64,000 nt of DNA, taken from Pseudomonas sp. JQ170C. GTDB lineage: Bacteria; Pseudomonadota; Gammaproteobacteria; Pseudomonadales; Pseudomonadaceae. Each line of letters starts with the position of its first letter. The first letter of the stretch is position 1. The notes beneath the pieces were generated by a model. It was not told the origin of the DNA, searched no databases, and saw only the letters and a program-made list of their open reading frames with translations. This document shows, piece by piece, positions 3,783 through 42,295 of the stretch. The DNA lies in NCBI RefSeq assembly GCF_035581345.1, contig NZ_CP141608.1, positions 1,320,001 to 1,384,000 on the forward strand. The letters run 5' to 3'. The translations under genes and the position numbers were made by a program.

Positions 3783-4526
3783 ATGGCTCAGCAGGGCAGT
3801 GGTTATCAAGCTCGCTATAAACGCATTCTACTCAAACTGAGCGGCGAGGCCCTGATGGGCTCGGAAGAATTCGGGATCGACCCCAAGGTCCTGGATCGCA
3901 TGGCGCTGGAAGTCGGCCAGCTGGTCGGCATCGGTGTTCAAGTAGGCCTGGTGATCGGTGGTGGCAACCTGTTCCGTGGGGCGGCGCTCAGTGCAGCCGG
4001 CATGGATCGCGTCACTGGCGACCACATGGGTATGCTGGCCACCGTCATGAACGCTCTTGCCATGCGTGATGCGCTGGAACGCGCGAATATCACCGCTATC
4101 GTCATGTCGGCAATTTCCATGGTAGGCGTGACCGATCACTACGATCGCCGCAAAGCCATGCGCCACCTGAACGCCAAAGAAGTTGTAATCTTCGCTGCCG
4201 GCACCGGCAACCCGTTCTTCACCACCGACTCCGCCGCTTGCCTGCGCGCCATCGAAATCGATGCCGACGTGGTATTGAAGGCAACCAAGGTCGATGGTGT
4301 ATACACTGCAGATCCATTCAAAGACCCGCATGCCGAGAAGTTCGATCATCTGACCTACGATGAAGTGCTGGATCGCAAGCTGGGCGTGATGGACCTGACG
4401 GCAATCTGCCTGTGCCGCGACCACAAGATGCCGCTGCGCGTCTTCAACATGAACAAGCCTGGCGCCCTGCTGAACATCGTGCATGGCGGCGCTGAAGGAA
4501 CTCTGATCGAGGAAGTTCAAAAATGA
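3783..4526 (+). CDS. pyrH: UMP kinase
   Basis: Bacterial UMP kinase of the amino-acid-kinase fold, 247 residues. It makes UDP from UMP. The N-terminal KLSGEALMG and the GGGNLFRG phosphate loop are present, as is the nucleotide-binding [14 protein letters not shown] segment. The start is preceded by AGGAGAG. Its stop overlaps the frr start by four bases (ATGA), so the two are translationally coupled. Confidence 0.97.
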
Positions 4527-5080
4527 TCAACGAAATCAAGAAAGACGCCCAAGAGCGTATGCAGAAATCGCTGGAGTCCCTGGCGCAGGCATTCAGCCGT
4601 ATTCGTACCGGCGCGGCCAACCCGCAGATCCTGGCTGGCGTTCAAGTGCCTTACTACGGTGCCGACACCCCGATCAACCAGGTTGCCAACGTCACTGTCA
4701 AGGACGCCCGCACACTGCAAGTCGTTGCCTTCGAGCGCAACATGCTGGCTGCGGTAGAGAAAGCCATCCTCAACTCGGGCCTGGGTTTCAACCCGACCAA
4801 CCTGGGTGAGCTGCTGCTGATCTCGATGCCGGCACTGACGGAAGAAACCCGTAAAGGTTTCACCAAGCAAGCCCGTGATGCCGCCGAAGATGGCCGCATT
4901 GCCGTGCGTAACATCCGTCGTGACGCGTTGAGCCAGCTCAAAGACCTGGTCAAAGAGAAAGAAATCAGCGAAGACGAAGAGCGTCGCGCCGCTGACGACA
5001 TCCAGAAGCTGACCGACAAGTTCGTGGCTGACATCGAAGTTGCTGTGAAGCAGAAAGAAAAGGACCTGATGGCCGTTTAA
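4523..5080 (+). CDS. frr: Ribosome recycling factor
   Basis: RRF, 185 residues, splits post-termination ribosomes together with EF-G. The three-helix bundle segments are clear (the [10 protein letters not shown] segment near residue 30 and RNIRRDAL near residue 133). It overlaps pyrH by 4 bp and is followed 16 bp later by uppS. Confidence 0.98.
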
Positions 5081-5096
5081 GGGTCGGGACTTTTTG

Positions 5097-5852
5097 ATGG
5101 AAAAGACCAAGCAGGGTGTGTCCCCATCGGTGCCGCGCCATGTCGCGATCATCATGGATGGGAATAATCGCTGGGCGAAAAAGCGCCTGTTGCCCGGTGT
5201 AGCCGGGCATAAGGCAGGCGTGGATGCGGTGCGCGCGGTCATCGAGGTGTGCGCCGAAGCCAAGGTCGAGGTGCTGACCCTGTTCGCCTTCTCCAGCGAA
5301 AACTGGCAACGACCGGCCGAAGAGGTCGGTGCGTTGATGGAGCTGTTCTTCTCGGCCTTGCGCCGGGAAGCCAAGCGCCTCAACGACAACAACATCAGCC
5401 TGCGCATCATCGGTGATCGCTCACGCTTTCACCCGGAGTTGCAGGCTGCCATGCGTGAGGCCGAGGCGCTGACCGCAGGCAACAACCGCTTTATCCTGCA
5501 AATCGCCGCCAACTACGGCGGACAATGGGATATTGCCCAGGCCGCCCAGCGCCTGGCGCGCGAAGTTCAGGCCGGTCACCTGCGTCCTGAAGACATCACC
5601 CCGGAACTGTTGCAAACCTGTCTGGCTACTGGCGATCTGCCGTTGCCTGACCTGTGTATCCGTACCGGTGGCGAGCATCGCATCAGCAACTTCCTGTTGT
5701 GGCAGCTGGCCTACGCCGAGCTGTACTTCTCCGACCTGTTCTGGCCGGACTTCAAACACGAGGCCATGCGCAAAGCGCTGGCCGATTACGCTTCGCGCCA
5801 GCGCCGCTTCGGGAAAACCAGCGAGCAGGTCGAGGCTGGAGCCCGTGCTTAA
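5097..5852 (+). CDS. uppS: Undecaprenyl diphosphate synthase (cis-prenyltransferase)
   Basis: This 251-residue enzyme condenses isopentenyl diphosphate onto farnesyl diphosphate to make the C55 carrier for peptidoglycan and O-antigen. The catalytic D21 lies in IIMDGNNRWAKKR, and the C-terminal RTGGEHRISNFLLWQ motif is intact. An upstream in-frame TTG at 5094 is ignored in favour of the ATG at 5097. The stop shares one base with the cdsA start (TAATG). Confidence 0.96.
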   Translation: MEKTKQGVSPSVPRHVAIIMDGNNRWAKKRLLPGVAGHKAGVDAVRAVIEVCAEAKVEVLTLFAFSSENWQRPAEEVGALMELFFSALRREAKRLNDNNISLRIIGDRSRFHPELQAAMREAEALTAGNNRFILQIAANYGGQWDIAQAAQRLAREVQAGHLRPEDITPELLQTCLATGDLPLPDLCIRTGGEHRISNFLLWQLAYAELYFSDLFWPDFKHEAMRKALADYASRQRRFGKTSEQVEAGARA

Positions 5853-6667
5853 TGCTTAAACTACGCATCATCACTGCGCTGATCCTGCTACCGATTGCCC
5901 TGGGCGGCTTCTTTCTCCTCGATGGAGGGGATTTCGCCCTGTTCATCGGGTTGGTGGTGAGCCTCGGTGCCTGGGAGTGGGCGCGTCTGGCAGGTCTGGC
6001 CGCTCAAGCGTTTCGTGTTGCCTACGCCGCCGTCGTGGCCGGGTTGCTCATGCTGCTCTACCTGATGCCGGACCTTGCACCCTGGGTGCTGGGCGCTTCG
6101 GTATTGTGGTGGGCGGGAGCCACCTGGCTGGTGCTGACCTACCCACGTACCAGTGAGCTGTGGTCCAGCGTTGCCTGTCGGCTGTTGATCGGTCTCCTGA
6201 TCCTTTTGCCGGCCTGGCAGGGCCTGGTGCTGCTCAAGCACTGGCCGCTGGGTAACTGGCTGATCATGGCGGTCATGGTGCTGGTCTGGGGTGCAGATAT
6301 TGGCGCCTACTTTTCCGGCCGGGCCTTTGGCAAGCGCAAGCTGGCGCCGCAGGTCAGTCCGGGCAAGAGCTGGGAAGGCGTCTACGGCGGTCTGGCGCTG
6401 AGCCTGGTGATCACCGCAGTCGTTGGCGTGAGTCGCGACTGGAGTTTCGGCGAGCTGGTGCTTGGCTTGCTGGGCGCTGCTGTCGTGGTGTTGGTGTCGG
6501 TGGTCGGTGACCTGACCGAAAGCATGTTCAAGCGTCGCTCCGGGATCAAGGACAGCAGCAATCTGCTGCCGGGTCACGGTGGCGTACTGGATCGTATCGA
6601 CAGCCTGACCGCGGCCATTCCGCTGTTTGCCGTGCTGCTCTGGGCAGCCAACTGGGGCGTGATGTGA
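5852..6667 (+). CDS. cdsA: Phosphatidate cytidylyltransferase (CDP-diglyceride synthase)
   Basis: This 271-residue inner-membrane enzyme makes CDP-diacylglycerol from phosphatidate and CTP. The sequence is almost entirely hydrophobic membrane segments. It ends with the CdsA signature [20 protein letters not shown] followed by GVLDRID (about residues 224-252). I chose the ATG that overlaps the uppS stop. The open frame continues upstream only as an out-of-frame reading of uppS. Confidence 0.95.
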
Positions 6668-7854
6668 GCGGCGTGCAACGTATTACCGTGCTGGGAGCTA
6701 CCGGCTCCATCGGCATGAGCACCCTGGATGTCATCGGGCGTCATCCCGACCGCTACCAGGTGTTTGCGCTGAGCGGCTATTCGCGGCTCCAGGAATTGCT
6801 TGCGCTTTGCCTGCGCCATACGCCGACCTTTGCCGTGGTGCCCAGCGCCGAGGCGGCGCAGCAGTTGCGCGAAGGCCTGGCGGCGGCCGGATCGGCCACC
6901 GAAGTGCTCGAAGGCGAAGCCGGGTTGTGCCAGGTCGCTTCGGCGCCCGAGGTCGATACGGTGATGGCGGCCATTGTGGGGGCGGCGGGCTTGCGTCCGA
7001 CCTTGGCGGCGGTTGAGGCCGGCAAGAAGGTCCTGCTGGCCAACAAGGAAGCCTTGGTGATGTCCGGTGCGCTGTTCATGCAGGCGGTGCAGCGCAGTGG
7101 CGCCGTGCTGTTGCCCATCGACAGCGAGCACAATGCGATTTTCCAATGTTTGCCAGGTGACTATGCGCGTGGCCTGTCTCAGGTCGGTGTGCGGCGAATC
7201 CTGTTGACCGCCTCGGGTGGGCCGTTTCGCGAAACGCCATTGTCGGCGCTGGCCGAGGTCAGTCCGGAGCAGGCCTGTGCTCACCCTAACTGGTCGATGG
7301 GCCGCAAGATCTCGGTCGACTCGGCAAGCATGATGAACAAGGGCCTGGAGCTGATCGAGGCCTGCTGGTTGTTCGATGCGCGGCCAAGCCAGGTTGAAGT
7401 GGTGGTGCACCCCCAGAGTGTCATTCACTCGCTGGTGGATTACGTCGATGGTTCGGTGCTGGCCCAGTTGGGCAACCCGGACATGCGCACGCCGATCGCC
7501 AATGCGCTGGCCTGGCCGCAGCGGATCGACTCCGGCGTCGCGCCACTGGACCTGTTTGCCATTGCGCGTCTGGATTTCCAGGCGCCCGATGAGCAGCGGT
7601 TCCCGTGCTTGCGCCTGGCGCGCCAGGCTGCTGAGGCGGGCAACAGTGCGCCGGCGATGCTCAATGCGGCCAACGAAGTGGCTGTGGAGGCATTTCTCCA
7701 GCGACGCATCCGCTTCCCGGAGATCGCGAGTATGATCGAACAAGTGCTTGATCAGGAGCCGGTCGTGGCGGTGCAGACGCTCGATGCGGTGTTTGCTGCC
7801 GACCAGCGCGCACGGCAGCTGGCGGGGCAATGGTTGAGTCATCACGGGCGCTGA
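6664..7854 (+). CDS. dxr: 1-deoxy-D-xylulose 5-phosphate reductoisomerase
   Basis: Dxr (IspC), 396 residues, converts DXP to MEP, the second step of the non-mevalonate isoprenoid pathway. The NADPH-binding GATGSIG is at the N-terminus. The metal site [10 protein letters not shown], the ASGGPFR loop and [15 protein letters not shown] are all present. The start is GTG inside a GTGA overlap with the cdsA stop. With uppS, ispD and ispF it is one of four isoprenoid genes in the window. Confidence 0.97.
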
Positions 7855-7908
7855 GGCCGGGCGCACTGCGTCGGGCCCGGCTGCGCTGAACGTCATTCGG
7901 AGAAAGAT

Positions 7909-9261
7909 ATGAGTGCGCTCTACATGATTATCGGCACCCTGGTGGCATTGGGTGTGCTGGTTACCTTTCACGAATTCGGTCACTTCTGGGTGGCCCGGCG
8001 TTGTGGTGTCAAGGTCCTGCGTTTTTCCGTCGGTTTCGGCATGCCGTTGCTGCGCTGGCATGACCGCCACGGCACCGAGTTCGTGGTCGCGGCCATTCCC
8101 CTGGGTGGCTACGTCAAGATGCTCGATGAGCGTGAAGGTGACGTGCCGCCAGAGCAGGCAGAGCAATCCTTCAATCGCAAATCGGTACGCCAGCGCATCG
8201 CGATCGTCGCGGCGGGGCCGATTGCCAACTTCCTCCTCGCCATTTTGTTCTTCTGGGTCCTGGCAATGCTTGGCACCCAGCAGGAGCGCCCTGTCATTGG
8301 CGGGGTAGAGGCGGGCAGTGTGGCGGAAGTGGCGGGCCTGAAGGCTGGCCAGGAAATCATGTCCATCGATGGCAAGCCGACCAGTGGCTGGGCCGCCGTC
8401 AACCTGCAACTGATTCGCCGCCTGGGCGAGAGTGGCCAGCTGCACATTAATGTGCGTGAAGAGGGGGCGACAGTCGACAGCGCCCATGTGCTGACCCTCG
8501 ATAACTGGCTCAAGGGCGCCGATGAGCCTGATCCGATCCGCTCCCTGGGGCTGCGCCTGTGGCGCCCGGCGTTGCCACCGGTGCTGGCGGAGCTCGATCC
8601 GAAGGGGCCTGCCAAGGCCGCAGGCCTGCAAACTGGCGATCGCTTGCTGAGCCTGGATGGAAAAGCCTTGAACGATTGGCAGCAAGTGGTCGATACCGTG
8701 CGCGGACGTGCCGGTAGCAAGATCGTGCTGCAGGTCGAGCGTGACGGCGCCACCCTGGACATTTCGGTTACCCTGGCCACCCGTGGCGAAGGTAAATCGG
8801 CCAGTGGTTACCTGGGGGCAGGGGTGAAGCCGGTGAAGTGGCCCGATGCCATGCTCCGCGAGGTCAGCTATGGACCGTTGGAGGCTGTTGGCGAGGGGGT
8901 TTCGCGGACCTGGAACATGAGCGTCCTGACCCTCGAATCCTTGAAGAAAATGCTGTTCGGCGAGCTCTCGGTAAAAAACTTGAGCGGACCGATAACCATT
9001 GCTAAAGTGGCGGGCGCTTCGGCCCAGTCGGGTGTTGGAGATTTCCTGAATTTCCTCGCCTACCTGAGCATTAGCCTGGGGGTTCTTAATTTGCTGCCCA
9101 TTCCTGTACTGGATGGGGGGCATTTGCTGTTCTACCTGATCGAGTGGGCGCGTGGTCGCCCGCTCTCGGATCGGGTGCAAGGTTGGGGGATTCAAATCGG
9201 TATCAGTTTGGTAGTCGGGGTGATGTTGCTTGCCCTGATAAACGATTTGGGTCGACTGTAA
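7909..9261 (+). CDS. rseP: Site-2 intramembrane zinc protease RseP
   Basis: RseP, 450 residues, cuts the anti-sigma factor (MucA in Pseudomonas) within the membrane and so releases the envelope-stress sigma factor. The zinc site HEFGH is at residues 21-25 in the first membrane segment, with the third ligand D402 in PVLDGGH. Two PDZ domains lie between them (about 120-210 and 220-300). Lying just before bamA fits its role in sensing outer-membrane assembly faults. Confidence 0.96.
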   Translation: MSALYMIIGTLVALGVLVTFHEFGHFWVARRCGVKVLRFSVGFGMPLLRWHDRHGTEFVVAAIPLGGYVKMLDEREGDVPPEQAEQSFNRKSVRQRIAIVAAGPIANFLLAILFFWVLAMLGTQQERPVIGGVEAGSVAEVAGLKAGQEIMSIDGKPTSGWAAVNLQLIRRLGESGQLHINVREEGATVDSAHVLTLDNWLKGADEPDPIRSLGLRLWRPALPPVLAELDPKGPAKAAGLQTGDRLLSLDGKALNDWQQVVDTVRGRAGSKIVLQVERDGATLDISVTLATRGEGKSASGYLGAGVKPVKWPDAMLREVSYGPLEAVGEGVSRTWNMSVLTLESLKKMLFGELSVKNLSGPITIAKVAGASAQSGVGDFLNFLAYLSISLGVLNLLPIPVLDGGHLLFYLIEWARGRPLSDRVQGWGIQIGISLVVGVMLLALINDLGRL

Positions 9262-9280
9262 AGCTTCGCTCAATTGCGAA

Positions 9281-9301
9281 CCTGCCGCGTCCCGCGGCGG
9301 G
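9281..9301 (+). other. GC-rich hairpin between rseP and bamA
   Basis: A 9-bp stem CCTGCCGCG / CGCGGCGGG (one G-T pair) with a three-base loop, followed by TCGTTTATT. The T tract is too poor for a confident terminator. It may tune read-through or protect the bamA 5' end. Confidence 0.4.
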
Positions 9302-9335
9302 TCGTTTATTGCCAGTTGGAATAAGAAAGGACTTC

Positions 9336-11684
9336 ATGAAACGTCTGCTGCTAACTGCGGTTCTCGCCGTACTGATGATCGCTGAAGTTCACGCCGAGTC
9401 CTTCACCATCTCCGATATTCGTGTCAATGGTCTGCAGCGGGTTTCCGCGGGCAGCGTTTTCGGCGCTTTGCCATTGAACGTCGGGGATGAGGCCGATGAC
9501 CGTCGCCTGGTGGAATCCACCCGTGCGTTGTTCAAGACCGGTTTCTTCCAGGATATCCAACTGGGCCGTGACGGTAACGTCCTGATCATTACCGTGGTCG
9601 AGCGTCCTTCGGTGTCCAGCATCGAAATCGAAGGCAACAAGGCCATCAGCACTGAAGACCTGATGAAAGGTCTGAAGCAGTCGGGTCTGTCCGAAGGCGA
9701 AATCTTCCAGCGCGCCACCCTCGAAGGTGTGCGTAACGAACTGCAGCGCCAGTACGTTGCCCAGGGCCGCTACTCGGCCGAGGTCGAGACTGAAGTGGTG
9801 CCGCAGCCGCGCAATCGCGTCGGCCTGAAGATCAAGATCAACGAAGGCACCGTCGCTGCCATCCAGCACATCAACGTGGTCGGCAACACCGTCTTTCCGG
9901 ACGAAGACCTGATCGGCCTGTTCGAGCTCAAGACCACCAACTGGCTGTCGTTCTTCAAGAACGATGACAAGTACGCCCGTGAAAAACTCTCCGGCGACCT
10001 TGAGCGTCTGCGTTCCTACTACCTGGACCGCGGCTACATCAACATGGACATCGCCTCTACCCAGGTATCCATTACCCCGGACAAGAAGCACGTCTACATC
10101 ACGGTCAACGTCAACGAAGGCGAGAAGTACACCGTTCGCGACGTCAAGCTCTCTGGTGACCTCAAGGTGCCGGAAGACCAGGTCAAGTCGCTGATGCTGG
10201 TGCAGCCAGGCCAGGTGTTCTCGCGCAAAGTGATGACCACCACCTCCGAGCTGATCACCCGCCGCCTGGGTAACGAGGGCTATACCTTCGCCAACGTCAA
10301 CGGCGTGCCTCAGCCAAACGACCAGGATCACACTGTCGATATCACCTTCGTGGTCGACCCGGGCAAGCGTGCCTACGTCAACCGAATCAACTTCCGTGGC
10401 AACACCAAGTCCGAAGACGAAGTGCTGCGCCGCGAAATGCGTCAGATGGAAGGTGGCTGGGCATCGACTTACCTGATCGACCAGTCCAAGACCCGTTTGG
10501 AGCGCCTGGGCTTCTTCAAGGAAGTCAACGTCGAGACTCCGGCTGTTCCGGGTACCGACGACCAGGTCGACGTCAACTACAGCGTCGAGGAGCAAGCCTC
10601 CGGTTCGATCACCGCCAGCGTTGGTTTCGCCCAGAGCGCAGGCCTGATCCTGGGTGGTTCGATCAGCCAGACCAACTTCCTGGGTACCGGTAACAAGGTG
10701 TCCATCGGCCTGACCCGAAGCGAATACCAGAGCCGCTACAACTTCGGCTTCGTCGACCCCTACTGGACTGCCGATGGTGTCAGCCTGGGTTACAACGCCT
10801 TCTATCGCACCACCGACTACGATGACCTTGATGTCGACGTGGCCAGCTATGCGGTAGACAGCCTCGGTGCCGGTGTCAGCGTCGGCTACCCGATCAGTGA
10901 AACTTCGCGTCTGACCTTCGGTCTGACCGTGCAGCAGGACGAAATCAAGACGGGCAAGTACACCGTTGACGAGATCTTCGACTTCGTTAACGAAGAGGGT
11001 GACAAATACCTGAACTTCAAGGCCTCGGCCGGTTGGTCCGAGTCGACCCTGAACAAGGGTGTGCTGGCGACCCGTGGTCACTCCCAGAGCCTGGTGCTCG
11101 AAGCGACCACGCCAGGCAGCGACCTGTCGTTCTTCAAGCTCGACTACCGTGGCCAGCTGTTCAAGCCGATCACCAACGACTACACCCTGCGCCTGCACAC
11201 CGAGCTGGGCTATGGTGATGGTTTCGGTGGCACCTCGGGCCTGCCGTTCTATGAGAACTACTATGCCGGTGGTTTCAACTCGGTACGCGGTTTCAAGGAC
11301 AGCAGCCTGGGTCCACGCAGTACCCCGAGCGACGGTCATAACCCGGGTACCATTGCCGACCCGGACCAGGATCCGCTGCCGTTCGGTGGTAACGTTCTCG
11401 TCCAGGGTGGTGTAGAGCTGCTGTTCCCACTGCCGTTCGTCAAGGACCAGCGTTCGCTGCGTACCTCGGTCTTCTGGGATGTGGGTAACGTGTTCGACAC
11501 CAACTGCGGTTCCAAACCTGATTGCGAGGATGTCGGCCTGTCGGGGCTGGCCAGTTCCGTAGGTCTGGGTGTTACCTGGATCACTGCGCTGGGTCCGTTG
11601 AGCTTCAGCCTGGCGATGCCGGTCAAGAAGCCGGACGAAGCCGATACCCAGGTGTTCCAATTCTCTCTGGGCCAGACCTTCTAA
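9336..11684 (+). CDS. bamA: Outer membrane protein assembly factor BamA
   Basis: BamA, 782 residues from the chosen ATG, inserts beta-barrel proteins in the outer membrane. A signal peptide (MKRLLLTAVLAVLMIAEVHA) is followed by five POTRA domains to about residue 420 and then the 16-strand barrel. The loop-6 lock motif VRGF is present in NSVRGFKDSS. The last residues FQFSLGQTF carry the C-terminal phenylalanine signal. The ATG follows AAGAAAGGA. The frame is open further upstream but has no start-site support there. Confidence 0.97.
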   Translation: MKRLLLTAVLAVLMIAEVHAESFTISDIRVNGLQRVSAGSVFGALPLNVGDEADDRRLVESTRALFKTGFFQDIQLGRDGNVLIITVVERPSVSSIEIEGNKAISTEDLMKGLKQSGLSEGEIFQRATLEGVRNELQRQYVAQGRYSAEVETEVVPQPRNRVGLKIKINEGTVAAIQHINVVGNTVFPDEDLIGLFELKTTNWLSFFKNDDKYAREKLSGDLERLRSYYLDRGYINMDIASTQVSITPDKKHVYITVNVNEGEKYTVRDVKLSGDLKVPEDQVKSLMLVQPGQVFSRKVMTTTSELITRRLGNEGYTFANVNGVPQPNDQDHTVDITFVVDPGKRAYVNRINFRGNTKSEDEVLRREMRQMEGGWASTYLIDQSKTRLERLGFFKEVNVETPAVPGTDDQVDVNYSVEEQASGSITASVGFAQSAGLILGGSISQTNFLGTGNKVSIGLTRSEYQSRYNFGFVDPYWTADGVSLGYNAFYRTTDYDDLDVDVASYAVDSLGAGVSVGYPISETSRLTFGLTVQQDEIKTGKYTVDEIFDFVNEEGDKYLNFKASAGWSESTLNKGVLATRGHSQSLVLEATTPGSDLSFFKLDYRGQLFKPITNDYTLRLHTELGYGDGFGGTSGLPFYENYYAGGFNSVRGFKDSSLGPRSTPSDGHNPGTIADPDQDPLPFGGNVLVQGGVELLFPLPFVKDQRSLRTSVFWDVGNVFDTNCGSKPDCEDVGLSGLASSVGLGVTWITALGPLSFSLAMPVKKPDEADTQVFQFSLGQTF

Positions 11685-11725
11685 GGTCTGCCCCTTGCTA
11701 ACAACGGATTCTGTAGGAGTGCATC

Positions 11726-12229
11726 GTGCGTAAGTTGACCCAACTGGCAGTACTGGCTGCGGCCCTGGTCGCAACCCCGGCTTTCGCCGAAATGAAAATT
11801 GCCGTACTGAACTATCAGATGGCCCTGCTTGAGTCGGACGCGGCCAAGAAGTACGCCGTCGATGCCGAGAAGAAGTTCGGTCCGCAACTGACCAAGCTGA
11901 AGAACCTGGAAAGCAGTGCCAAGGGCATCGCCGACCGCATTCGTGCCGGTGGCGACAAAATGGCCCAGCCAGAGCGTGAGCGTCTGGAGCTTGAATACAA
12001 GCAGAAAGCCCGTGACTTCCAGTTCCAGTCCAAGGAACTGAACGAGTCCAAGGCCGTGGCTGACCGCGAAATGCTCAAGCAGCTGAAGCCGAAACTCGAC
12101 GGCGCTGTTGAAGAAGTCATCAAGAAAGGCGGTTTTGATCTGGTTCTCGAGCGTGGCGCGGTCATTGATGTCAAGCCTCAGTACGACATCACCCGCCAGG
12201 TCATCGAGCGCATGAATCAGTCCCGTTGA
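11726..12229 (+). CDS. skp: Periplasmic chaperone Skp/OmpH
   Basis: This 167-residue protein has a signal peptide ending in TPAFA. Its body is rich in charged helix ([35 protein letters not shown]), matching the tentacle-like coiled coil of Skp, which holds unfolded outer-membrane proteins. The start is GTG after TAGGAG. It sits between bamA and lpxD, the usual order. Confidence 0.94.
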
Positions 12230-12231
12230 GT

Positions 12232-13287
12232 ATGACCGTGACTATGAAACTCGGTCAGTTGGCCGAGTTCCTCGGGGCTACCTTGAGTGGCCCCGCGGAG
12301 CTGGAAATTACCGGCCTGGCAACCCTTCAGGAAGCCGGGCCGGGTCAGTTGAGCTTCCTCGCCAATCCGCAGTACCGCAAGTACCTCGGCGATAGCCATG
12401 CGGCCGCCGTGCTGCTCAAGGCTGCCGATGCCGAAGGTTTTGCCGGTCATGCGCTGATCGTTGCCGATCCGTACCTTGCCTACGCACGCATCTCCCACCT
12501 GTTCGATCCAAAGCCCAGGGCTGTAGCGGGAATTCATCCCAGCGCCGTGGTTGCCAGTGATGCCCAGGTGGATGCCAGTGCTAGCGTTGGTGCCTTTGCG
12601 GTGATCGAGAGCGGTGCGCAGATCGGTCCGGGTGTGGCTATCGGTGCCCAGTGCTTCATCGGCGCGCGCTGCGTGATCGGAGAGGGCGGCTGGTTGGCAC
12701 CGCGGGTAACCCTGTACCACGATGTGCGCATCGGCAAGCGCGTGGTGATCCAGTCGGGCGCGGTGATCGGCGGCGAAGGCTTCGGCTTTGCCAACGAGAA
12801 AGGCGTCTGGCAGAAGATCGCCCAGATTGGCGGCGTGAGCATCGGCGATGATGTCGAGATCGGCGTAAACACCGCGGTAGACCGTGGTGCCCTGGCCGAC
12901 ACCAGGATCGGAGACGGGGTCAAGCTCGACAACCAGATCCAGATCGCCCATAACGTACAGATTGGCGATCACACGGCCATGGCCGCGTGTGTCGGTATTT
13001 CCGGCAGTACCAAGATCGGCAAGCATTGCACCATCGCCGGCGGTGTCGGCATGGTAGGGCATATCGATGTCTGTGATGGTGTGTTCGTATCCGGCATGAC
13101 CATGGTCACCCGCTCGATTACCGAGCCAGGAGCCTATTCTTCCGGTACGGCGATGCAGACACTGGGCGAGTGGCGTAAAAGTGCCGCCCGGATTCGTCAA
13201 CTCGACGAGATGGCCAAACGGCTCCAACAGCTGGAAAAGCGTGTCGAGGCCGTGACCTCAGGCAGCCAGTCTTCATCTGAAGGCTGA
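12232..13287 (+). CDS. lpxD: UDP-3-O-(3-hydroxyacyl)glucosamine N-acyltransferase
   Basis: LpxD, 351 residues, adds the N-linked acyl chain in lipid A synthesis. An N-terminal uridine-binding domain (to about 100) is followed by a left-handed beta-helix of hexapeptide repeats ([16 protein letters not shown]). The catalytic histidine is in [11 protein letters not shown]. The ATG at 12232 is 2 bp after the skp stop. An in-frame TTG at 12226 and an ATG at 12244 are alternatives. Confidence 0.95.
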
Positions 13288-13398
13288 TACCATTTCCTGA
13301 TCGAGAGTGAATAGCCGCAGGCTGACTCTTTGATTTTGCAAAAGGAGCGCCTGGCGAATACGGGCGCTCCCTATCTTTACTACAGGCTTCCCCCCGAA

Positions 13399-13839
13399 AT
13401 GATGGACATCAACGAGATTCGCGAATACCTGCCTCACCGTTACCCGTTCCTGCTGGTGGACCGTGTAGCGGAGCTGGACGTCGAGGCCAAGCGCATTCGT
13501 GCCTACAAGAATGTCAGCATCAACGAACCCTTCTTCAACGGTCACTTCCCGGCGCACCCGATCATGCCGGGTGTTCTGATCATTGAAGCGATGGCTCAGG
13601 CAGCCGGTATCCTTGGCTTCAAGATGCTCGATGTGAAGCCGGCCGATGGCACCCTTTACTACTTCGTTGGCTCCGACAAGCTACGCTTTCGTCAGCCTGT
13701 GTTGCCGGGTGACCAACTGATTCTCGAAGCCAAGTTCATCAGCTGCAAGCGCCAGATCTGGAAATTCGAGTGCCAGGCGTCGGTCGACGGCAAGCCAGTA
13801 TGCTCGGCCGAGATCATCTGCGCGGAACGTAAACTATGA
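13399..13839 (+). CDS. fabZ: 3-hydroxyacyl-[ACP] dehydratase FabZ
   Basis: FabZ, 146 residues, dehydrates 3-hydroxyacyl-ACP in fatty acid elongation. The hot-dog fold active site is complete: H49 in NGHFPAHP and E63 in [10 protein letters not shown]. The open frame reaches upstream to 13330, but homology begins at [14 protein letters not shown]. Its location between the lpx genes links fatty acid and lipid A supply, which share the 3-hydroxyacyl-ACP pool. It overlaps lpxA by 4 bp. Confidence 0.97.
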
Positions 13840-14612
13840 GTTTGATTGACCCTCGGGCAATCATCGATCCATCGGCGAAGATCGCCGACGGCGTCGAGGT
13901 CGGCCCTTGGTCTATCATCGGTGCCGGGGTTGAGATCGGCGAGGGGACCGTCATTGGTCCGCACGTGATTCTCAAAGGCCCGACCCGTATTGGTAAGCAC
14001 AACCGCATCTACCAGTTCTCCTCGGTAGGTGAAGACACCCCTGACCTCAAGTACAAGGGTGAGGCCACGCGCCTGGTGATTGGTGATCACAATGTGATTC
14101 GCGAAGGCGTGACTATCCACCGTGGCACCGTGCAAGACCGCTCGGAAACCACGTTGGGTGATCACAACCTGATCATGGCCTATGCCCACATCGGTCACGA
14201 CAGCGTCATAGGCAATCATTGCATCCTGGTCAACAACACGGCGCTGGCAGGTCATGTACACGTTGACGACTGGGCGATCCTGTCCGGTTTCACCCTCGTG
14301 CATCAGTTCTGCCATATCGGCGCGCACAGCTTTTCCGGCATGGGCACGGCGATCGGCAAGGATGTTCCGGCCTATGTCACTGTGTTCGGTAATCCGGCCG
14401 AAGCCCGCAGCATGAACTTCGAGGGCATGCGTCGCCGCGGTTTCAGCGAAGATGCCATTCATGCCCTGCGTCGCGCCTACAAGGTGGTTTACCGCCAGGG
14501 CCTGACGGTCGAGCAAGCGATTGCCGAACTGGCGGAGCCTGCGACCCAATTCCCTGAAGTCGACGTGTTCCTCAAGTCGATCCAGAACTCCACCCGCGGC
14601 ATCACCCGCTGA
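13836..14612 (+). CDS. lpxA: UDP-N-acetylglucosamine O-acyltransferase
   Basis: LpxA, 258 residues, catalyses the first step of lipid A synthesis. Hexapeptide repeats of the left-handed helix run from residue 1 to about 190. The catalytic histidine is H121 in [11 protein letters not shown] helical C-terminal domain follows ([18 protein letters not shown]). The start overlaps the fabZ stop (ATGA) and lpxB follows 1 bp after the stop. Confidence 0.97.
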
Positions 14613-14613
14613 T

Positions 14614-15741
14614 ATGGCTGAACTCTGTGTAGCGCTGGTGGCGGGTGAGGCCAGCGGTGACATTCTGGGTGCCGGGTTGATGCGCGCGCTTAAGGCGCGC
14701 CATCCTCAGGTGCGCTTCATTGGTGTCGGTGGCCCGCTGATGCAGGCCGAGGGCCTGGTCTCCTACTTCCCCATGGAGCGTCTTGCGGTCATGGGCCTGG
14801 TCGAAGTGCTCGGGCGCCTGCGTGAGCTGCTCAAACGGCGCAAGGCGCTGATCCAGACATTGATCGACGCATGTCCAGACGTGTTCATCGGTATCGATGC
14901 CCCGGATTTTACCCTCAACATCGAATTGAACCTGCGCAAGGCCGGGATCAAGACCGTGCATTACGTCAGCCCGTCGGTCTGGGCCTGGCGGCAGAAGCGC
15001 GTGCTGAAGATCCGTGAAGGCTGCGACCTGGTACTGACACTGTTCCCTTACGAAGCCAGGTTCTACGAAGAGAAGGGTGTGCCGGTGCGTTTTGTCGGCC
15101 ATCCGCTGGCCGACAGCATTCCGCTCCAGGCCGACCGGGCTCAGGCCCGTGAACAGCTTGGGCTGGGCGACGGGCCCTTGGTGGCCTTGATGCCAGGCAG
15201 TCGTGGCGGTGAAGTGGGGCGTTTGGGGGCTTTGTTTCTCGATGCTGCGCAGCGGTTGCAAACACTGGTGCCTGGTGTTCGCTTCGTCTCGCCTTGCGCC
15301 AATGCTGAGCGTCGCGCGCAGCTTGAGCAAATGATGGCAGGCCGCGATCTGCCCCTGACCTTGCTCGACGGTCGCTCCCACGAGGCCCTGGCGGCCTGTG
15401 ACGCGGTGCTGATCGCCTCCGGTACTGCCACCCTGGAAGCGTTGCTGTTCAAGCGCCCGATGGTGGTTGCCTATCGCATGGCGCCGCTGACTTACTGGAT
15501 TCTTAAACGACTGGTCAAAAGCCCTTACGTCTCCCTGCCCAACCTGCTGGCCCAGCGAATGCTGGTGCCTGAGTTGCTGCAGGAAGCTGCCACCGCCGAA
15601 GTACTGGCCCAGACCCTGGCGCCATTGGTGGAAGGTGGCGAGCAGCAGACCGAAAGCTTTGACCAGATTCACCGTACCCTGCGCCGCGATGCCTCCAACC
15701 AGGCAGCTGACGCGGTGCTGGCCTTGCTGGAAACCCGATAG
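14614..15741 (+). CDS. lpxB: Lipid-A-disaccharide synthase
   Basis: LpxB, 375 residues, is a GT19 glycosyltransferase joining UDP-diacylglucosamine and lipid X. The family start [15 protein letters not shown] is clear. [14 protein letters not shown] near residue 113 and the donor-site segment [19 protein letters not shown] follow. The ATG is one base after the lpxA stop, and its own stop abuts the rnhB start. Confidence 0.97.
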
Positions 15742-36929: not shown

Positions 36930-39497
36930 TTATAACAGAGTCTTCAGTGTATAGAGCATTTCGATAGCTTGGCGCGGCGTCATATTGTCCAGGTCGAGCT
37001 TCCCGAGCTTCTCGATGGCCGGGTGTGGCAGGCTGGCAAACAGGTCGCTCTGGTGCGGAACATCCGCCGCACCTTTGCTCAAGACAGGTGTTTCATGGGG
37101 TAGGCTGGCCGTTTCCAGGCGCCCCAGATGCTCACGGGCACGCTGGATAACCGGAGTAGGCACACCGGCCAACTGGGCAACGGCCAAGCCATAGCTCTGA
37201 CTGGCAGGCCCCGGCAATACGTGGTGCAGGAACACGATCCGCTCATTGTGCTCGGTGGCGTTCAGGTGCACGTTCGCCACCAGCGGCTCGCTTTCCGGCA
37301 GTACGGTCAGCTCAAAGTAATGCGTGGCGAACAGCGTGTAGGCGCGCAACTGGGCCAGGCGCTCGGCAGCGGCCCAGGCCAGCGACAGGCCGTCGAAGGT
37401 GCTGGTGCCGCGACCCACTTCGTCCATCAGCACCAGGCTGCGGTCGGTGGCGTTGTGCAGGATGTTGGCGGTTTCGCTCATCTCGACCATGAAGGTCGAG
37501 CGTCCGCCGGCCAGGTCATCGCTGGAGCCGATCCGGGTAAAGATCCGATCAACCAGCGACAGCTCGCAGCTGGCGGCCGGCACGAAACTGCCGATATGTG
37601 CCATCAGCACGATGAGGGCGGTCTGACGCATGTAGGTGGATTTACCGCCCATGTTCGGACCGGTAATCACCAGCATGCGCGTGTTGTCATCCAGCGCCAG
37701 GTCATTGGCCACGAACGGGGTGGTCAGCACTTGCTCGACCACAGGGTGGCGACCCTGGTTGATGCGCATGCACGGCTCGTCGACGAAGGTCGGGCAGTTC
37801 AGGTCCAGGTTCAGCGCACGTTCAGCCAGGTTGCTCAGCACGTCCAGTTCGGCCAGGGCGGCGGCGGTGTCCTGCAGCGGCGCCAGATGGCTGATCAGGG
37901 TTTCGAGCAGCGCGTCATAGAGCATCTTCTCCCGAGCCAGGGCGCGGCTTTTGGCCGACAGCGCCTTGTCTTCAAAGGTTTTCAGCTCCGGGGTGATGAA
38001 GCGCTCGGCGCCTTTGAGGGTCTGGCGCCGGATATAGTCGGCAGGTGCCTGCTCGGCCTGCTTGCTCGGCAGCTCGATGAAATAGCCGTGTACACGGTTA
38101 TAGCCGACCTTGAGATTGGCAAGGCCGGTACGGGCTTTTTCCCGGGCCTCGAGGTCGATGAGGAACTGGCCGGCGTTCTCGCTCATGGCCAACAGCTCGT
38201 CCAGCTCACTGTCGTAGCCGGTCTTGAGCACGCCGCCGTCACGGATCACCGCAGGAGGGTTATCGACGATGGCTTTTTCCAGCAGATCGGCCAGCTCCGG
38301 GTACGTGCCGGCGATGGCAGCCAGGCGGGCGAGATGCGGCGCCTCGAGTTCGGCCATGGCGTTTTGCAATTCAGGCAAGGCGCCGAGGGCGTCACGCAGG
38401 CGGGCCAGGTCCCGTGGGCGGGCGTTGCGCAGGCCGATGCGGGCGAGAATCCGCTCGATGTCGCCGATTTCCTTGAGTTGCGGTTGCAACTTCTCGAAGC
38501 GGTAGCCATCGAGCAGGCAGCGAATCGAACCCTGGCGGGCCTGAAGCACTTTCAGGTCACGCAGCGGACGGTTCAGCCAGCGGGTCAGCAGGCGGCTGCC
38601 CATGGCGGTCTGGCAGCGGTCGATGACCGACTGCAAGGTGTTGTCGCGACCACCTGCCAGGTTGATGTCCAGTTCCAGGTTGCGACGGCTGGCGCCGTCG
38701 AGCACCACGGTATCGTCCAGGCGCTCATGCTTGAGGCTGCGCAAATGGGGCAGGGCGGTGCGCTGGGTTTCCTTGGCATAGCCGAGCAGGCAGCCCGCAG
38801 CGCCAATGGCGAGGGTCAGCTTTTCACAGCCAAAGCCCTTGAGGTCCTGGGTTGCGAACTGCTGGCACAGGCTTTTGCGTGCCGAGTCACGGTCGAAGTC
38901 CCAGGGGGCGCGGCGACGGGCGCCCCGGCGTTTTTCAGCCGGCAGGCCTTGTGGCCAGTCGTCCGGAATCAATAGCTCTACCGGATTGATGCGTTCGAGC
39001 TCGGCCAGCAGGTTTTCCCAGCCTTTGATCTCCAGCACCGTGAAGTTGCCGCTGGTAATGTCCAGTACTGCCAGGCCGAACAGACGTTCGTCACCCAGCA
39101 CGGCAGCGATCAGGTTGTCGCGGCGCTCGTCGAGCAACGCTTCATCACTGACAGTACCCGGCGTAAGAATACGCACCACCTGGCGCTCGACCGGACCCTT
39201 GCTGGTGGCCGGGTCGCCAACCTGCTCGCAGATCACCACCGACTCGCCCAGCTTCACCAGCTTGGCCAGGTACCCTTCGGCTGCGTGGAAGGGGATGCCA
39301 CACATGGGGATCGACTGGCCCGCCGACTGCCCGCGGGCGGTCAGGGTAATATCCAGGAGTTTTGCGGCCTTCTTCGCATCTTCGTAGAAGATCTCGTAGA
39401 AGTCGCCCATGCGGTAGAACATCAGCTGGTCCGGGTGCTGGTTTTTCAGCTTCCAGTACTGCTGCATCATCGGAGTGTGTGCGGAAAGATCGCTCAT
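36930..39497 (-). CDS. mutS: DNA mismatch repair protein MutS
   Basis: MutS, 855 residues, recognises mismatches. The mismatch-contact motif FYEIFYEDA is near residue 30. The Walker [14 protein letters not shown] is near residue 610, with [12 protein letters not shown] (Walker B) and the C-terminal dimer region after it. The ATG at 39497-39495 gives the usual [14 protein letters not shown]. Upstream in-frame codons lie in the repressor control region and are not supported. It is the left flank of the degraded bacteriocin locus. Confidence 0.97.
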
Positions 39498-39605
39498 TAC
39501 AGAAACTTGGCTCGCAGTGTCGTTTAGACCAAAGGCAAGCGGGCAATGGTACAGGGATTTTGCCGTGGATGCCGAGGCCATCGGCCGCGCCGCGACCTTT
39601 TGTCC

Positions 39606-39670
39606 ATGCATTTTCGTGCATTGGAGCAATTGCATTTCGCCCAAGCGCTCTGCATTATGCGGATTATGCA
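39606..39670. promoter_or_regulatory. TGCA-motif operator array at the prtR-like gene
   Basis: TGCA cores lie at 39607, 39617, 39631, 39651 and 39667 (first base of each), four of them as TGCAT. Spacings are 10, 14, 20 and 16 bp. They cover the likely repressor promoter and its first codon. The same motif is clustered downstream at 40487-40555. Autoregulation by the repressor is inferred. Confidence 0.55.
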
Positions 39671-40400
39671 AAAACGCAACGTAGCATCCGTCTTAAGAGC
39701 ACTGCTCGACCGTCACGGTATCTCCCCCACGGAGCTTCACCGGCGTACCGGCGTGCCGCAATCCACCTTGTCGCGCATTCTCAGCGAGAAGATCGTCGAT
39801 CCTTCTGACAAGCATGTGTCGAAAATCGCCGAGTACTTCGGGGTGAGCACCGACCAACTGCGTGGCCGTGTCGACCTGGGCGAAAGCCGCGAGGCAGCGC
39901 CTGCCCGCAGCCATGCCGAGTTGCATGACATCAGCCTGTGGGATGACGACACCCCGATCGAGGATGACGAGGTGTCCATCCCGTTTCTTCGCGAGGTCGA
40001 ATTGGCAGCAGGATCAGGACGATTCGTCATCGAGGAAAGCGAGAAGGCCAGCCTGCGCTTCGGCAAGCGCAGCCTGCGTCATAACGGCGTGCAGTTCGAC
40101 CAGGCCAAATGCGTCACCGTACGCGGCAACAGCATGTTGCCGGTGCTGCGCGATGGCGCCACGGTGGGGGTCAATGCCGGTAAAAGTGGCATTGGCGATA
40201 TCGTCGACGGTGATCTCTATGCCATCAATCACAATGGCCAGTTGCGGGTGAAGCAGCTCTACCGCTTGCCTACCGGTATCCGCTTGCGCAGCTTCAACCG
40301 CGACGAGCATCCGGATGAAGACTACAGCTTCCAGCAGATGCAAGAAGAGCAGATCAGCATCCTGGGTCACGTCTTCTGGTGGGGCATGTACGCTCGCTGA
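39666..40400 (+). CDS. PrtR-like self-cleaving repressor (HTH-XRE plus S24 peptidase)
   Basis: 244 residues from the ATG at 39666 ([14 protein letters not shown]); an ATG at 39657 is possible. An N-terminal helix-turn-helix ([19 protein letters not shown]) is followed by an acidic linker and a LexA/CI-type peptidase domain. The Ala-Gly cleavage site is in [10 protein letters not shown] (A115-G116), the nucleophile is S156 in VRGNSM, and the general base is K196 in LRVKQL. This is the architecture of repressors of R/F-pyocins and related tailocins, which RecA filaments inactivate after DNA damage. The gene lies between mutS and cinA, a known tailocin site. No Shine-Dalgarno sequence is visible, so the mRNA may be leaderless. 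Confidence 0.88.
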
Positions 40401-40417
40401 AGCAATCACTTGATCTG

Positions 40418-40444
40418 AAAAACCCGCCTTGGCGGGTTTTTTTT
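40418..40444 (+). terminator. Terminator after the prtR-like gene
   Basis: Stem AAACCCGCC / GGCGGGTTT with a TT loop and a run of eight T, 17 bp after the stop. It isolates the repressor transcript from the lysis cassette. Confidence 0.88.
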
Positions 40445-40486
40445 CGCCTGCTGAAAACCCGTAAGCCCTTACCAGAGAAGGATTTT

Positions 40487-40555
40487 ATGCAGAGGTGCAA
40501 TTCTCGATGCATAAATATCTCAACAAATGCATTGACTGCATATGCATCAGTGCAT
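40487..40555. promoter_or_regulatory. TGCA operator array upstream of the lysis genes
   Basis: TGCA cores start at 40488, 40496, 40508, 40528, 40537, 40543 and 40551. Three are full ATGCAT palindromes. The cores at 40488, 40508 and 40528 are exactly 20 bp apart, two helical turns. They cover and flank the promoter at 40532-40560. A repressor bound here would block RNA polymerase. Confidence 0.65.
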
Positions 40556-40560
40556 AATCT
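40532..40560 (+). promoter_or_regulatory. Promoter of the holin-endolysin cassette
   Basis: TTGACT (40532-40537), a 17-bp spacer and TAATCT (40555-40560), or CATAAT two bases earlier. The spacer holds TGCATATGCAT and a third TGCAT. It faces the holin and lies 89 bp after the repressor terminator. Confidence 0.6.
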
Positions 40561-40857
40561 TTGTCTCAAGCCGGTCGACACCGGCAGTGGAAAAGGCAGC
40601 GATGGATCGGCCTCAACGATTCAGAGGGTTGGCAACTGGCCCGGGTGTGCAGCGTAAAGCACCACGAACAGTTATCCGGCGGGCAGGCGGCCGCGGTCGG
40701 AGGAACAATTTGAAGCGCAGTTGCACAGGGCACCAGACGTGACTGGCAACTGGACAACGCATTACTGCAAAGCCTGGACAGCCCCGGGCTTTTTGGAATG
40801 CCGAGTGATCGGTTCTACAACAAACGCCGCAGGCAGCGTGCCGAGCGGACTTACTAA
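40561..40857 (+). pseudogene. Interrupted reading frame between the lysis promoter and the holin (uncertain)
   Basis: One frame reads WIGLNDSEGWQLARVCSVKH from 40603, is stopped by TGA at 40711-40713, and resumes DWQLDNALLQSLDSPGLFG to TAA at 40855-40857. At the stop, the neighbouring frame reads SEEQFEAQLHRAPDVTGNW, as if a frameshift had occurred. No convincing start codon with ribosome binding site is present. I do not recognise the product. It could be a decayed small phage gene or a long untranslated leader. Confidence 0.3.
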
Positions 40858-40869
40858 GGAGACAGGACA

Positions 40870-41229
40870 GTGACAAATGAGCACCAGACGTTGCTGGAAA
40901 TGCCGATCTGGCTGGTGATCGTCCTGGCTTTGCTGGGCGGTTTGAGCGGCGAAATGTGGCGTGCAGACAAGGACGGCGCCCGAGGTTGGGCGCTGGTCCG
41001 GCGCCTTCTGCTGCGCTCGGGGGCCTGCATGGTCTGCGGTGTGTCCACGGTGATGCTCCTGTATGCCAGCGGCATGTCGATCTGGAGCGCCAGCGCCTTT
41101 GGCTGCCTGACCGCGATGGCGGGAGCTGACATGGCGATAGGCCTTTATGAACGTTGGGCGGCGAGACGATTGGGCATGGAGACGCAACGGCCGGGCGCTC
41201 ACCACCAGGGCAACAAAAAAAGGGAGTGA
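40870..41229 (+). CDS. Holin of tailocin type
   Basis: 119 residues from GTG, with AAGGAG seven bases upstream. Three membrane segments are visible (about residues 12-28, 46-64 and 68-86), with a charged loop (MWRADKDGARGWALVRR) between the first two and a basic tail ending GNKKRE. Small size, three hydrophobic segments and the position after a PrtR-like repressor match holins of Pseudomonas tailocin loci. These open the inner membrane to release the endolysin. A holin-family assignment from sequence alone is moderately certain. The gene is intact. Confidence 0.75.
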   Translation: MTNEHQTLLEMPIWLVIVLALLGGLSGEMWRADKDGARGWALVRRLLLRSGACMVCGVSTVMLLYASGMSIWSASAFGCLTAMAGADMAIGLYERWAARRLGMETQRPGAHHQGNKKRE

Positions 41230-41231
41230 TC

Positions 41232-41470
41232 ATGAGCGAACTGACGACCTTGCATCAGGCCATCACCGCGACCATCAAGACAGCCATGCCTGAGCTGGCC
41301 AGTGTCGATGCGTATGTGGCCGTCGACAGCAGCACGGCTTTGCCCGCGCTGTTTCATTCCATTACTGCCTTGAGACCCGCCGTAGACCCTGGCGATGGTC
41401 GCGCCAGCATCCTGGCGACCTTTGAGGCCCGCCTCCATGTAGATGCGGCAGATACCCAGGCGCCCCTGCG
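41232..41470 (+). pseudogene. 5' fragment of a phage gp37/DUF1834-like gene
   Basis: The start codon and ribosome binding site (AAAGGGAG) are intact, 3 bp after the holin. About 79 codons read MSELTTLHQAITATIK through LPALFHSITALRPAVDPGDG to ATFEARLHVDA. The pattern of an LPAL element, a DPGDGR turn and a FEAR strand fits Mu gp37-like (DUF1834) tail proteins, which are usually longer. After about 41470 the frame continues out of register through another gene's end and stops at 41618. The family call is from memory and moderate. Confidence 0.5.
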
Positions 41471-41628
41471 CCCTGGATGGCGAGTTTCTGATCGAGTCGG
41501 TAGCGCAGACGTTCACAGCATCCGGTTGGAGCACCGCTGTCGAGTGCAACGGCGGCAAGCAGGGCAAGGCCCGGGCCAAGGGCAGTCAAACCGGGCGGGC
41601 TGCGTCGCTCAAGGCTGAGCAGCGTTGA
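41471..41628 (+). pseudogene. 3' fragment of a phage late control D-like (baseplate hub) gene
   Basis: From about 41471 a different frame reads LDGEFLIESVAQTFTASGW and continues VECNGGKQGKARAKG to a TGA at 41626-41628. This resembles the C-terminus of gpD/late control D proteins of Myoviridae-like tails and tailocins. No start exists for it. The fusion to the gp37-like fragment is out of frame by one base, so it is not expressed as a hybrid. Its usual place is just before the endolysin, as here. Confidence 0.5.
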
Positions 41629-41656
41629 CTGCCATACCTGAACATGGAGTGTGTAT

Positions 41657-42202
41657 ATGACGTTGGAACAACTTGCTGCCGTGTTTCCGAACGTCCGCCT
41701 GAACGCGGGCGTTTTTTTACCGGCATTGAATCAGGCCATGACCCGCTGGGAGATCAACACTCCCCGGCGAGTCGCAGCCTTCCTCGCCCAGGTAGGGCAC
41801 GAGTCCGGGCAACTGCGCTACGTCAAGGAACTGGGGAGCGAGCGCTATCTGTCGCGTTACGACACTGGCAGTCTGGCATTGCGCCTGGGCAATACCACCG
41901 AAGCCGACGGTGATGGCCAGTTGTACTGTGGGCGAGGCCTGATCCAGATCACCGGGCGCAATAACTATCGGGCCTGCAGTGTGGCGCTGTTCGGGGATGA
42001 TCGTTTGCTTGATCAACCGCAGTTGCTTGAGCAGCCACAATGGGCCTCGGAGTCTGCCGCGTGGTTCTGGCATTCACGGGGCTTGAACCAGCTGGCGGAC
42101 CGCGGTGAGTTCAATCGCATTACCCGACATATCAATGGCGGGCTCAATGGCCTGGAAGAGCGCCTGAAACTCTGGGCGAGGGCTCGTGAGGTGTTGTATT
42201 GA
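41657..42202 (+). CDS. GH19-type endolysin (lytic enzyme of tailocin/phage)
   Basis: 181 residues from the ATG seven bases after GGAG; an in-frame GTG at 41651 is less likely. The fold is the chitinase-19-like lysozyme of phages: RVAAFLAQVGHESGQL carries the catalytic glutamate, followed by CGRGLIQITGRNNYRA and the C-terminal RITRHINGGLNGLEER. It lacks a signal peptide, so it depends on the holin. No spanin gene follows before cinA. The reading frame is intact although its structural gene neighbours are lost. Confidence 0.9.
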   Translation: MTLEQLAAVFPNVRLNAGVFLPALNQAMTRWEINTPRRVAAFLAQVGHESGQLRYVKELGSERYLSRYDTGSLALRLGNTTEADGDGQLYCGRGLIQITGRNNYRACSVALFGDDRLLDQPQLLEQPQWASESAAWFWHSRGLNQLADRGEFNRITRHINGGLNGLEERLKLWARAREVLY

Positions 42203-42295
42203 GTCGTGCTCGCGTGGGGCGGTGCCGGCGCGTTGAGGATGTGTGGTAGGCCGGAGCTGGTGTAGGGTAGCTGGCAGTCTTTCAAGGAGCTTGCC

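Follow-up and report, generated by a model that had tools for sequence, protein, structure and literature searches.

A mutS-cinA tailocin locus of Pseudomonas reduced to a repressor, a holin and an endolysin

The window analyzed in this work is a stretch of 64,000 nucleotides from Pseudomonas sp. JQ170C, a strain whose genome forms one contig of 5.94 Mb, and all positions without another label refer to this window. Our subject is the interval between mutS, which starts at 39497 on the minus strand and forms the left flank, and cinA, which starts at 42296 and forms the right flank. This interval is a known site of phage-tail bacteriocins (tailocins), and in the window it is reduced to 2798 bp (39498..42295; the coordinates given in the original prediction were exact), whereas it spans about 14.5 kb in a relative belonging to P. 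vranovensis (locus L151). It holds genes for a repressor, a holin and an endolysin, whereas the list of open reading frames (ORFs), Pfam and PHROGs revealed no gene for a sheath, a tube, a baseplate or a fibre. Judged by cinA, P. putida 31753 (98%) and P. vranovensis DSM 16006 (96%) stand closest to the window among the genomes of the collection.

Genes, operators and deletion scars of the interval

The repressor gene (39666..40400, plus strand) encodes a PrtR-like S24 protein of 244 amino acids (aa) with matches to HTH_3 (1.1e-10) and Peptidase_S24 (1.4e-18). Residues Ala115-Gly116, Ser156 and Lys196 are all present and are kept in 32 of 32 aligned repressors; by analogy with LexA and CI they would serve in self-cleavage. 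Combining a helix-turn-helix (HTH) domain with an S24 domain that carries the Ala-Gly site, the serine and the lysine, the protein has the features of a PrtR/LexA-type repressor and is predicted to cleave itself. A comparison with solved structures gave no match at E 0.01. The holin gene (40870..41229, plus strand, GTG start) encodes 119 aa and matches PF16085 (5.3e-52), and the GH19 endolysin gene (41657..42202, plus strand) encodes 181 aa and matches PF00182 (3.5e-7) and phrog_181 (4.3e-70). All three reading frames are open and each has a family match, as had been anticipated from the sequence. When compared with a Gram-negative lysis cassette, the interval contains the holin and the endolysin (PF16085, phrog_181) and has lost the Rz/Rz1 spanin by deletion. 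When compared with an R-type tailocin cluster, it has the site, the prtR-type repressor, the holin and the lysin, and lacks recognisable sheath, tube and baseplate genes. Among the defence models of PADLOC, holin and lysin were unmatched at 0.01 and the repressor gave only weak HTH matches.

Two clusters of TGCA boxes flank the repressor gene. Upstream of it, four TGCA occur within 120 bp, and the segment 39607..39665 (plus strand) is probably an autoregulatory operator. A second cluster (40488..40560, plus strand) forms the putative operator-promoter of the lysis genes, with TTGACT (40532), a 17-bp spacer and TAATCT (40555). The whole gap between repressor and holin contains 10 TGCA, as compared to a mean of 1.8 and a maximum of 8 in 200 mononucleotide shuffles. 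In a clade of 13 species described below, the same promoter layout is found, with TTGACT-17-TAGTCT in most rows, and it lies within a block of 45 columns that is 95% conserved, whereas conservation over the entire gap alignment averages 44% when gap-rich columns are counted as zero. Of the operator-covered promoter in the original prediction, the operator holds, and the promoter, which a strict scan does not call, is a putative one based on its conservation. A scan of the 5.94-Mb genome for the operator pattern, with up to three mismatches allowed, found this site alone and no further repressor target, and thus no co-regulated cargo was located. Between operator and holin (40562-40869) the sequence is similar in relatives and contains part of a 66-aa ORF (40542-40742) without Pfam match; a leader, a small protein or a Com remnant are candidates.

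Between holin and endolysin lies a scar consisting of two parts in different frames. The left part (41232..41472, plus strand) is the N-terminus of the structural gene that comes first behind the holin (phrog_1072, 3.4e-16) and aligns to L151 until about position 4372 of that locus. The right part (41473..41628, plus strand) corresponds to the 51 3'-terminal codons of a gene for a gpD-like tail hub (phrog_52, 9.4e-5; 92% to L151), which is the final structural gene ahead of the endolysin. The junction falls within 41469..41475, with a few ambiguous bases, and in comparison to L151 the window is without positions ~4373-15570, that is 11.2 kb. The expectation that no structural gene was left is correct in so far as none is recognised intact; the out-of-frame scar at 41232-41628 does, however, preserve pieces of the first and the last of them. 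Judged by this scar and its alignment to L151, the interval descends from an R-type tailocin cluster.

Downstream of the endolysin gene only the ends of an Rz/Rz1 spanin gene remain (42199..42231, plus strand). In relatives the spanin gene follows lys: it is intact in the locus of P. putida 31753 (L039, 7108-7608) and matches at 85% over 1-167 of 169 in L151, and the window's alignment skips it. Retention of the lysis genes, as originally predicted, thus holds for the open holin and endolysin frames and fails for the spanin, whose deletion had been missed.

Independent deletions and recurrence in the genus

The locus of P. putida 31753 carries the same gene set as the window plus the intact spanin, and is missing ~4458-15703 in L151 coordinates. 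Window and L039 each retain bases that are absent from the other, and therefore neither scar can be derived from the other by deletion alone; the two loci lost their tail genes by different, mutually exclusive deletions. The order repressor-holin-endolysin also occurs in L041 (P. alkylphenolica PSB00016) and L071 (Pseudomonas sp. BGr12), again with other spacings between holin and lysin. Among seven loci of this type (window, L039, L041, L071, L084, L132 and L186), an intact spanin is found only in L039, a count in which L132 ends with its contig 300 bp after lys and L084 adjoins a second element.

The latter locus, from P. putida KH-21-134, was rejected as a plain tail-less locus, since a second lysin upstream within the locus, and another holin upstream on the contig at a distance of 28 kb, indicate that its tail-less stretch adjoins another element. 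Its mutS lies outside the 10 kb fetched, and the locus is still included in the seven-locus spanin count and in the six-locus rate count given below. The locus of P. guariconensis LMG 27394 (L066/L133) was left out of the tail-less count, as baseplate-like ORFs were seen by eye together with a truncated lysin.

For a survey of the genus, 149 Pseudomonas genomes were drawn evenly; cinA was found in 148 and mutS in 148, and both lay on one contig in 140, after eight of 148 genomes with mutS and cinA on separate contigs had been dropped. The gap between the two genes was below 400 bp in 24 genomes, 400-9000 bp in 39 (including the window) and at least 9 kb in 77, the latter being classed as tailocin- or prophage-sized, as gene content was read for all 39 intervals of 400-9000 bp and for these only. 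A repressor was found in 15 of these 39 intervals, and 24 had neither repressor nor holin (tblastn, E 1e-3). Nine of the 15 have repressor and holin only (G051, G021, G116, G107, G132, G137, G128, G134, G086); in G134 and G086 there are additional ORFs beside the pair, none of them a recognised tail gene, with one ORF having been searched against Pfam, and the G134 locus (L187) is the same cassette as L075. Repressor, holin and endolysin are present in two genomes, the window's and G114. The remaining four (G059, G135, G005, G121) are partly emptied: about 2 kb separate the holin from the lysin, and fragments or cargo lie in this space. Tail-less lysis loci thus occur at mutS-cinA in 11 of 140 genomes, and the holin is intact in 15 of 15 repressor-bearing survey loci below 9 kb.

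A tree of repressor and holin from 53 loci requires at least 11 changes between tail-bearing and tail-less states (Fitch count with midpoint root, partly emptied loci being scored as tail-bearing). The comparison of mutS-cinA intervals called for in the original prediction has therefore established that the tail-less form recurs. Remnants of the spanin 3' end are present ahead of cinA in L184 and L185 and, more weakly, in L206 (11 residues, E 3e-5), and those loci therefore derive from larger ones. These data support the view that repressor and holin are the core of the switch and its commonest form, and that the switch has arisen many times in Pseudomonas.

The survey also bears on addiction, by which a working holin bars loss of the repressor and the pair persists like a toxin-antitoxin system without any benefit. 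Repressor and holin are indeed the last parts to persist, and neither was found alone among the 39 intervals of 400-9000 bp. However, addiction would put no penalty on losing the holin itself, and still the gene is intact in all 15 loci; nor does addiction alone predict the purifying selection on clade holins reported below. We consider this explanation improbable.

Purifying selection on repressor and holin

When 398 genomes were searched with the holin-cinA DNA of P. paraversuta (L115), 55 matched at 1e-60, and the match covered holin and cinA in 14 of them, namely in 10 L115-type genomes (E of 1e-106 or lower) and in 4 from other groups. The 10 L115-type loci together with L110, L112 and L116 make up 13 species, the duplicate pairs L115/L194, L183/L195 and L181/L201 having been counted once. 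Repressor, holin and cinA are consecutive in all 13, without lysin, and the 13 loci group together in the tree with support 1.0. Twelve have mutS immediately upstream, and the contig of L203 does not show mutS. As these loci were found by holin/cinA similarity, their intact holins are no unbiased count.

In this clade the holin has accumulated 64 nonsynonymous (N) and 311 synonymous (S) changes, corresponding to a rate ratio of 0.073, and the ratio for the repressor is 0.097. For 17 tailocin-bearing loci the respective values are 0.210 for the holin, 0.069 for the repressor and 0.134 for the lysin. The clade holin is therefore more constrained than holins of tailocins, and the clade repressor slightly less so than its counterpart. 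Purifying selection together with the conserved operator block indicates that the lone holin has been kept, and kept repressible. When the tree of the clade modules was compared with a cinA-recA tree, 7 of 11 splits agreed.

For the window itself, the ratio of N to S substitution rates (dN/dS) against L039 is 0.08 for the holin and 0.039 for the endolysin. On the window branch, S and N changes amount to 17 and 0 in the repressor, 9 and 2 in the holin, and 22 and 3 in the lysin. The lysis genes of the window are thus constrained, and part or all of that constraint may predate the deletion. No other strain with this scar was found in the collections used, from which records close to the window may be missing, and L039 carries a different deletion. 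The scar remnant has 10 S and 6 N changes on the window branch, as compared to 5 and 4 or 4 and 3 in relatives; with no relaxation visible, the window deletion may be recent.

Such a recent, undecayed deletion would make the window locus a passing stage from tailocin to empty site, at which the frames of holin and endolysin have simply not had the time to decay. In agreement with this are, apart from the scar remnant, the full-sized cluster still present in the nearby P. vranovensis, the spanin that is already gone, and the 24 of 140 genomes in which the gap is below 400 bp. In contrast, a stage with a broken holin was met in 0 of 15 survey loci below 9 kb, the repressor-holin state is old and constrained in the 13-species clade, and window, L039, L041 and L071 arrived at similar end states via different junctions. 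We regard a recent deletion as an unlikely, but serious, account of the window locus.

Other lysis genes and a possible switch for cell death

Lysis genes are found elsewhere in the same genome. A prophage at 2.076-2.108 Mb (L149, L152, L153) contains integrase, primase, gpA terminase, portal, sheath and gpD genes as well as a related holin, a GH19 lysin and a spanin of its own, and the single sheath match of the genome, at 2.10 Mb, belongs to it and lies apart from mutS-cinA. With this element as an example, it can be argued that the switch acts in trans, by opening the cell to let out particles or bacteriocins whose genes lie at another site. Cargo would fit such a role: in the partly emptied locus of G005 (L191) a 282-aa protein with a B_lectin (D-mannose-binding lectin) domain, which we presume to be LlpA-like, is encoded between holin and lysin, and in Q8r1-96 a colicin M-like gene follows the holin. 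Nevertheless, the prophage at 2.08-2.11 Mb owns its lysis genes, a bacteriocin search limited to Pyocin_S had no match in the window genome, the operator pattern exists at this site alone, and 9 of the 17 repressor-holin genomes yielded no phage sheath gene. Help in trans therefore seems to us of low probability.

Further ORFs were noted at or near these elements. P. guariconensis 20-MO00619-0 has two ORFs of 283 and 182 aa without Pfam match between holin and cinA (L054:8441-9882), and an ORF of 184 aa in L188 (G086) has, by eye, a similar hydrophobic layout; a bacteriocin with its immunity protein, carried as cargo of the switch, is possible for both loci. Two lambda-like prophage ends of the window genome, L148 (1870000-1888000) and L150 (3728000-3747000), have in common a tail-tip region, a 207-aa endolysin and neighbour ORFs, and look identical over the starts that were compared. 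Three records carry other genus names: L075 (Pantoea sp. Ap-967), L085 (Pantoea sp. Cy-639) and L045 (Paucimonas metagenome-assembled genome). With cinA 89-95% identical to that of the window they seem to be Pseudomonas, and these names look wrong.

The locus resembles several described systems. With the mutS-cinA R-type tailocins (Pf-5 prophage 01, Q8r1-96 and P. protegens CHA0) it shares the site, the PrtR-type repressor and the holin and endolysin found at the cluster ends, but it is without tail genes and without spanin. Mavrodi (2009, PMC2647930) showed that the related holin and endolysin from this site of Pf-5 lyse Escherichia coli upon expression, the endolysin alone doing so only after chloroform, and named a possible recombination hotspot between prtR-hol and lys. 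Loci with repressor and holin are already in print: for the phyllosphere Pseudomonas S04, S19, S34 and S35 only a transcriptional regulator and an R2-pyocin holin were reported between mutS and cinA (PMC7204214, 2020), in passing, as the accessible part of that paper gives them one sentence and no analysis of origin or selection; the window additionally keeps the endolysin. Explosive cell lysis of P. aeruginosa (PMC8131026, PMC8609362) employs Hol and Lys of the R/F-pyocins, likewise a holin and an endolysin of a tailocin locus, and there serves DNA release by a few cells; P. aeruginosa, however, keeps the tail genes and the activator PrtN, whereas the window repressor is taken to act directly. 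The AlpR-AlpA-AlpBCDE programme of cell death in P. aeruginosa (PMC7969949) is similar in that a self-cleaving repressor frees a holin-like lysis programme upon DNA damage. It resides at a different locus, and no AlpA- or AlpCDE-like gene, nor any further gene, was recognised in the window interval by ORF list, Pfam or PHROGs, a screen of the interval made without direct comparison to Alp proteins. An analysis of recurrence or selection for such loci was not found in the papers searched by title, opening of the abstract or passages, a collection in which many subscription papers are missing.

A tail-less locus with a retained lysis switch is real, and its wider repressor-holin form recurs in the genus and shows purifying selection in one old clade. 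By a narrow measure, we favor the reading that the window locus is a former mutS-cinA R-type tailocin cluster cut down to a DNA-damage lysis switch, and that selection has maintained this switch in at least one old clade. The 11.2-kb deletion fused the tail genes that had stood at the two ends of the structural set, and the spanin was taken out by another deletion. The repressor, predicted to cleave itself, would act on two promoters, its own and the one from which holin and endolysin are transcribed together; upon DNA damage, activated RecA (RecA*) would promote its self-cleavage, the holin would then open the inner membrane and the endolysin cut the peptidoglycan, and a small number of cells would become round and rupture, setting free DNA, vesicles and cytoplasm. 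SOS induction, lysis, a benefit for kin and selection on the window's own copy are inferred.

Several observations weigh against this reading. The complete lysis set has not been kept, as the spanin is damaged or lost in six of the seven repressor-holin-endolysin loci and the commonest form has lost the endolysin as well; in the window, deletion of the spanin should impair rupture of the outer membrane unless the function is supplied in trans. Endolysin relatives exist elsewhere in 15 of 17 repressor-holin genomes (one of them a weak match) and in two there is none, so that the holin may act for enzymes of prophages. No promoter is called at the lysis-gene operator when the sigma-70 consensus is applied strictly. 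In six repressor-holin-endolysin loci (window, L039, L041, L071, L132, L084), with N/S rate ratios of 0.201 for the holin, 0.063 for the repressor and 0.153 for the lysin, on branches that include pre-deletion time, the holin is no more strongly constrained than in intact loci. The scar without clear relaxation, discussed above, has to be added. Finally, two well-supported splits of the species tree (0.97 and 0.995) are missing from the module tree of the 13-species clade, whose conflicting splits reach at most 0.78, and exchange of clade modules with other loci may have occurred. Selection for a lysis cassette, as first suggested, is thus favored by recurrence, by intact holins in 15 of 15 loci and by the ratio of 0.073 in the clade, and disfavored by the incomplete lysis set.

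As a broader and more tentative proposal, it is possible that a host-owned suicide switch, consisting of a self-cleaving repressor and a holin with or without an endolysin, has repeatedly been carved from tailocin loci next to recA and selected without the weapon. If true, the benefit would be that DNA and cell contents are set free for kin upon damage, or that damaged cells are removed. Strains that have trigger and lysis genes but lack a particle make it testable whether self-lysis as such is of benefit to bacteria. With recurrence in 11 of 140 sampled genomes and long-lasting constraint on the lone holin of one clade, tailocin loci would be a source for a separate function in cell death, and a locus missing its tail genes need not be a dead remnant.

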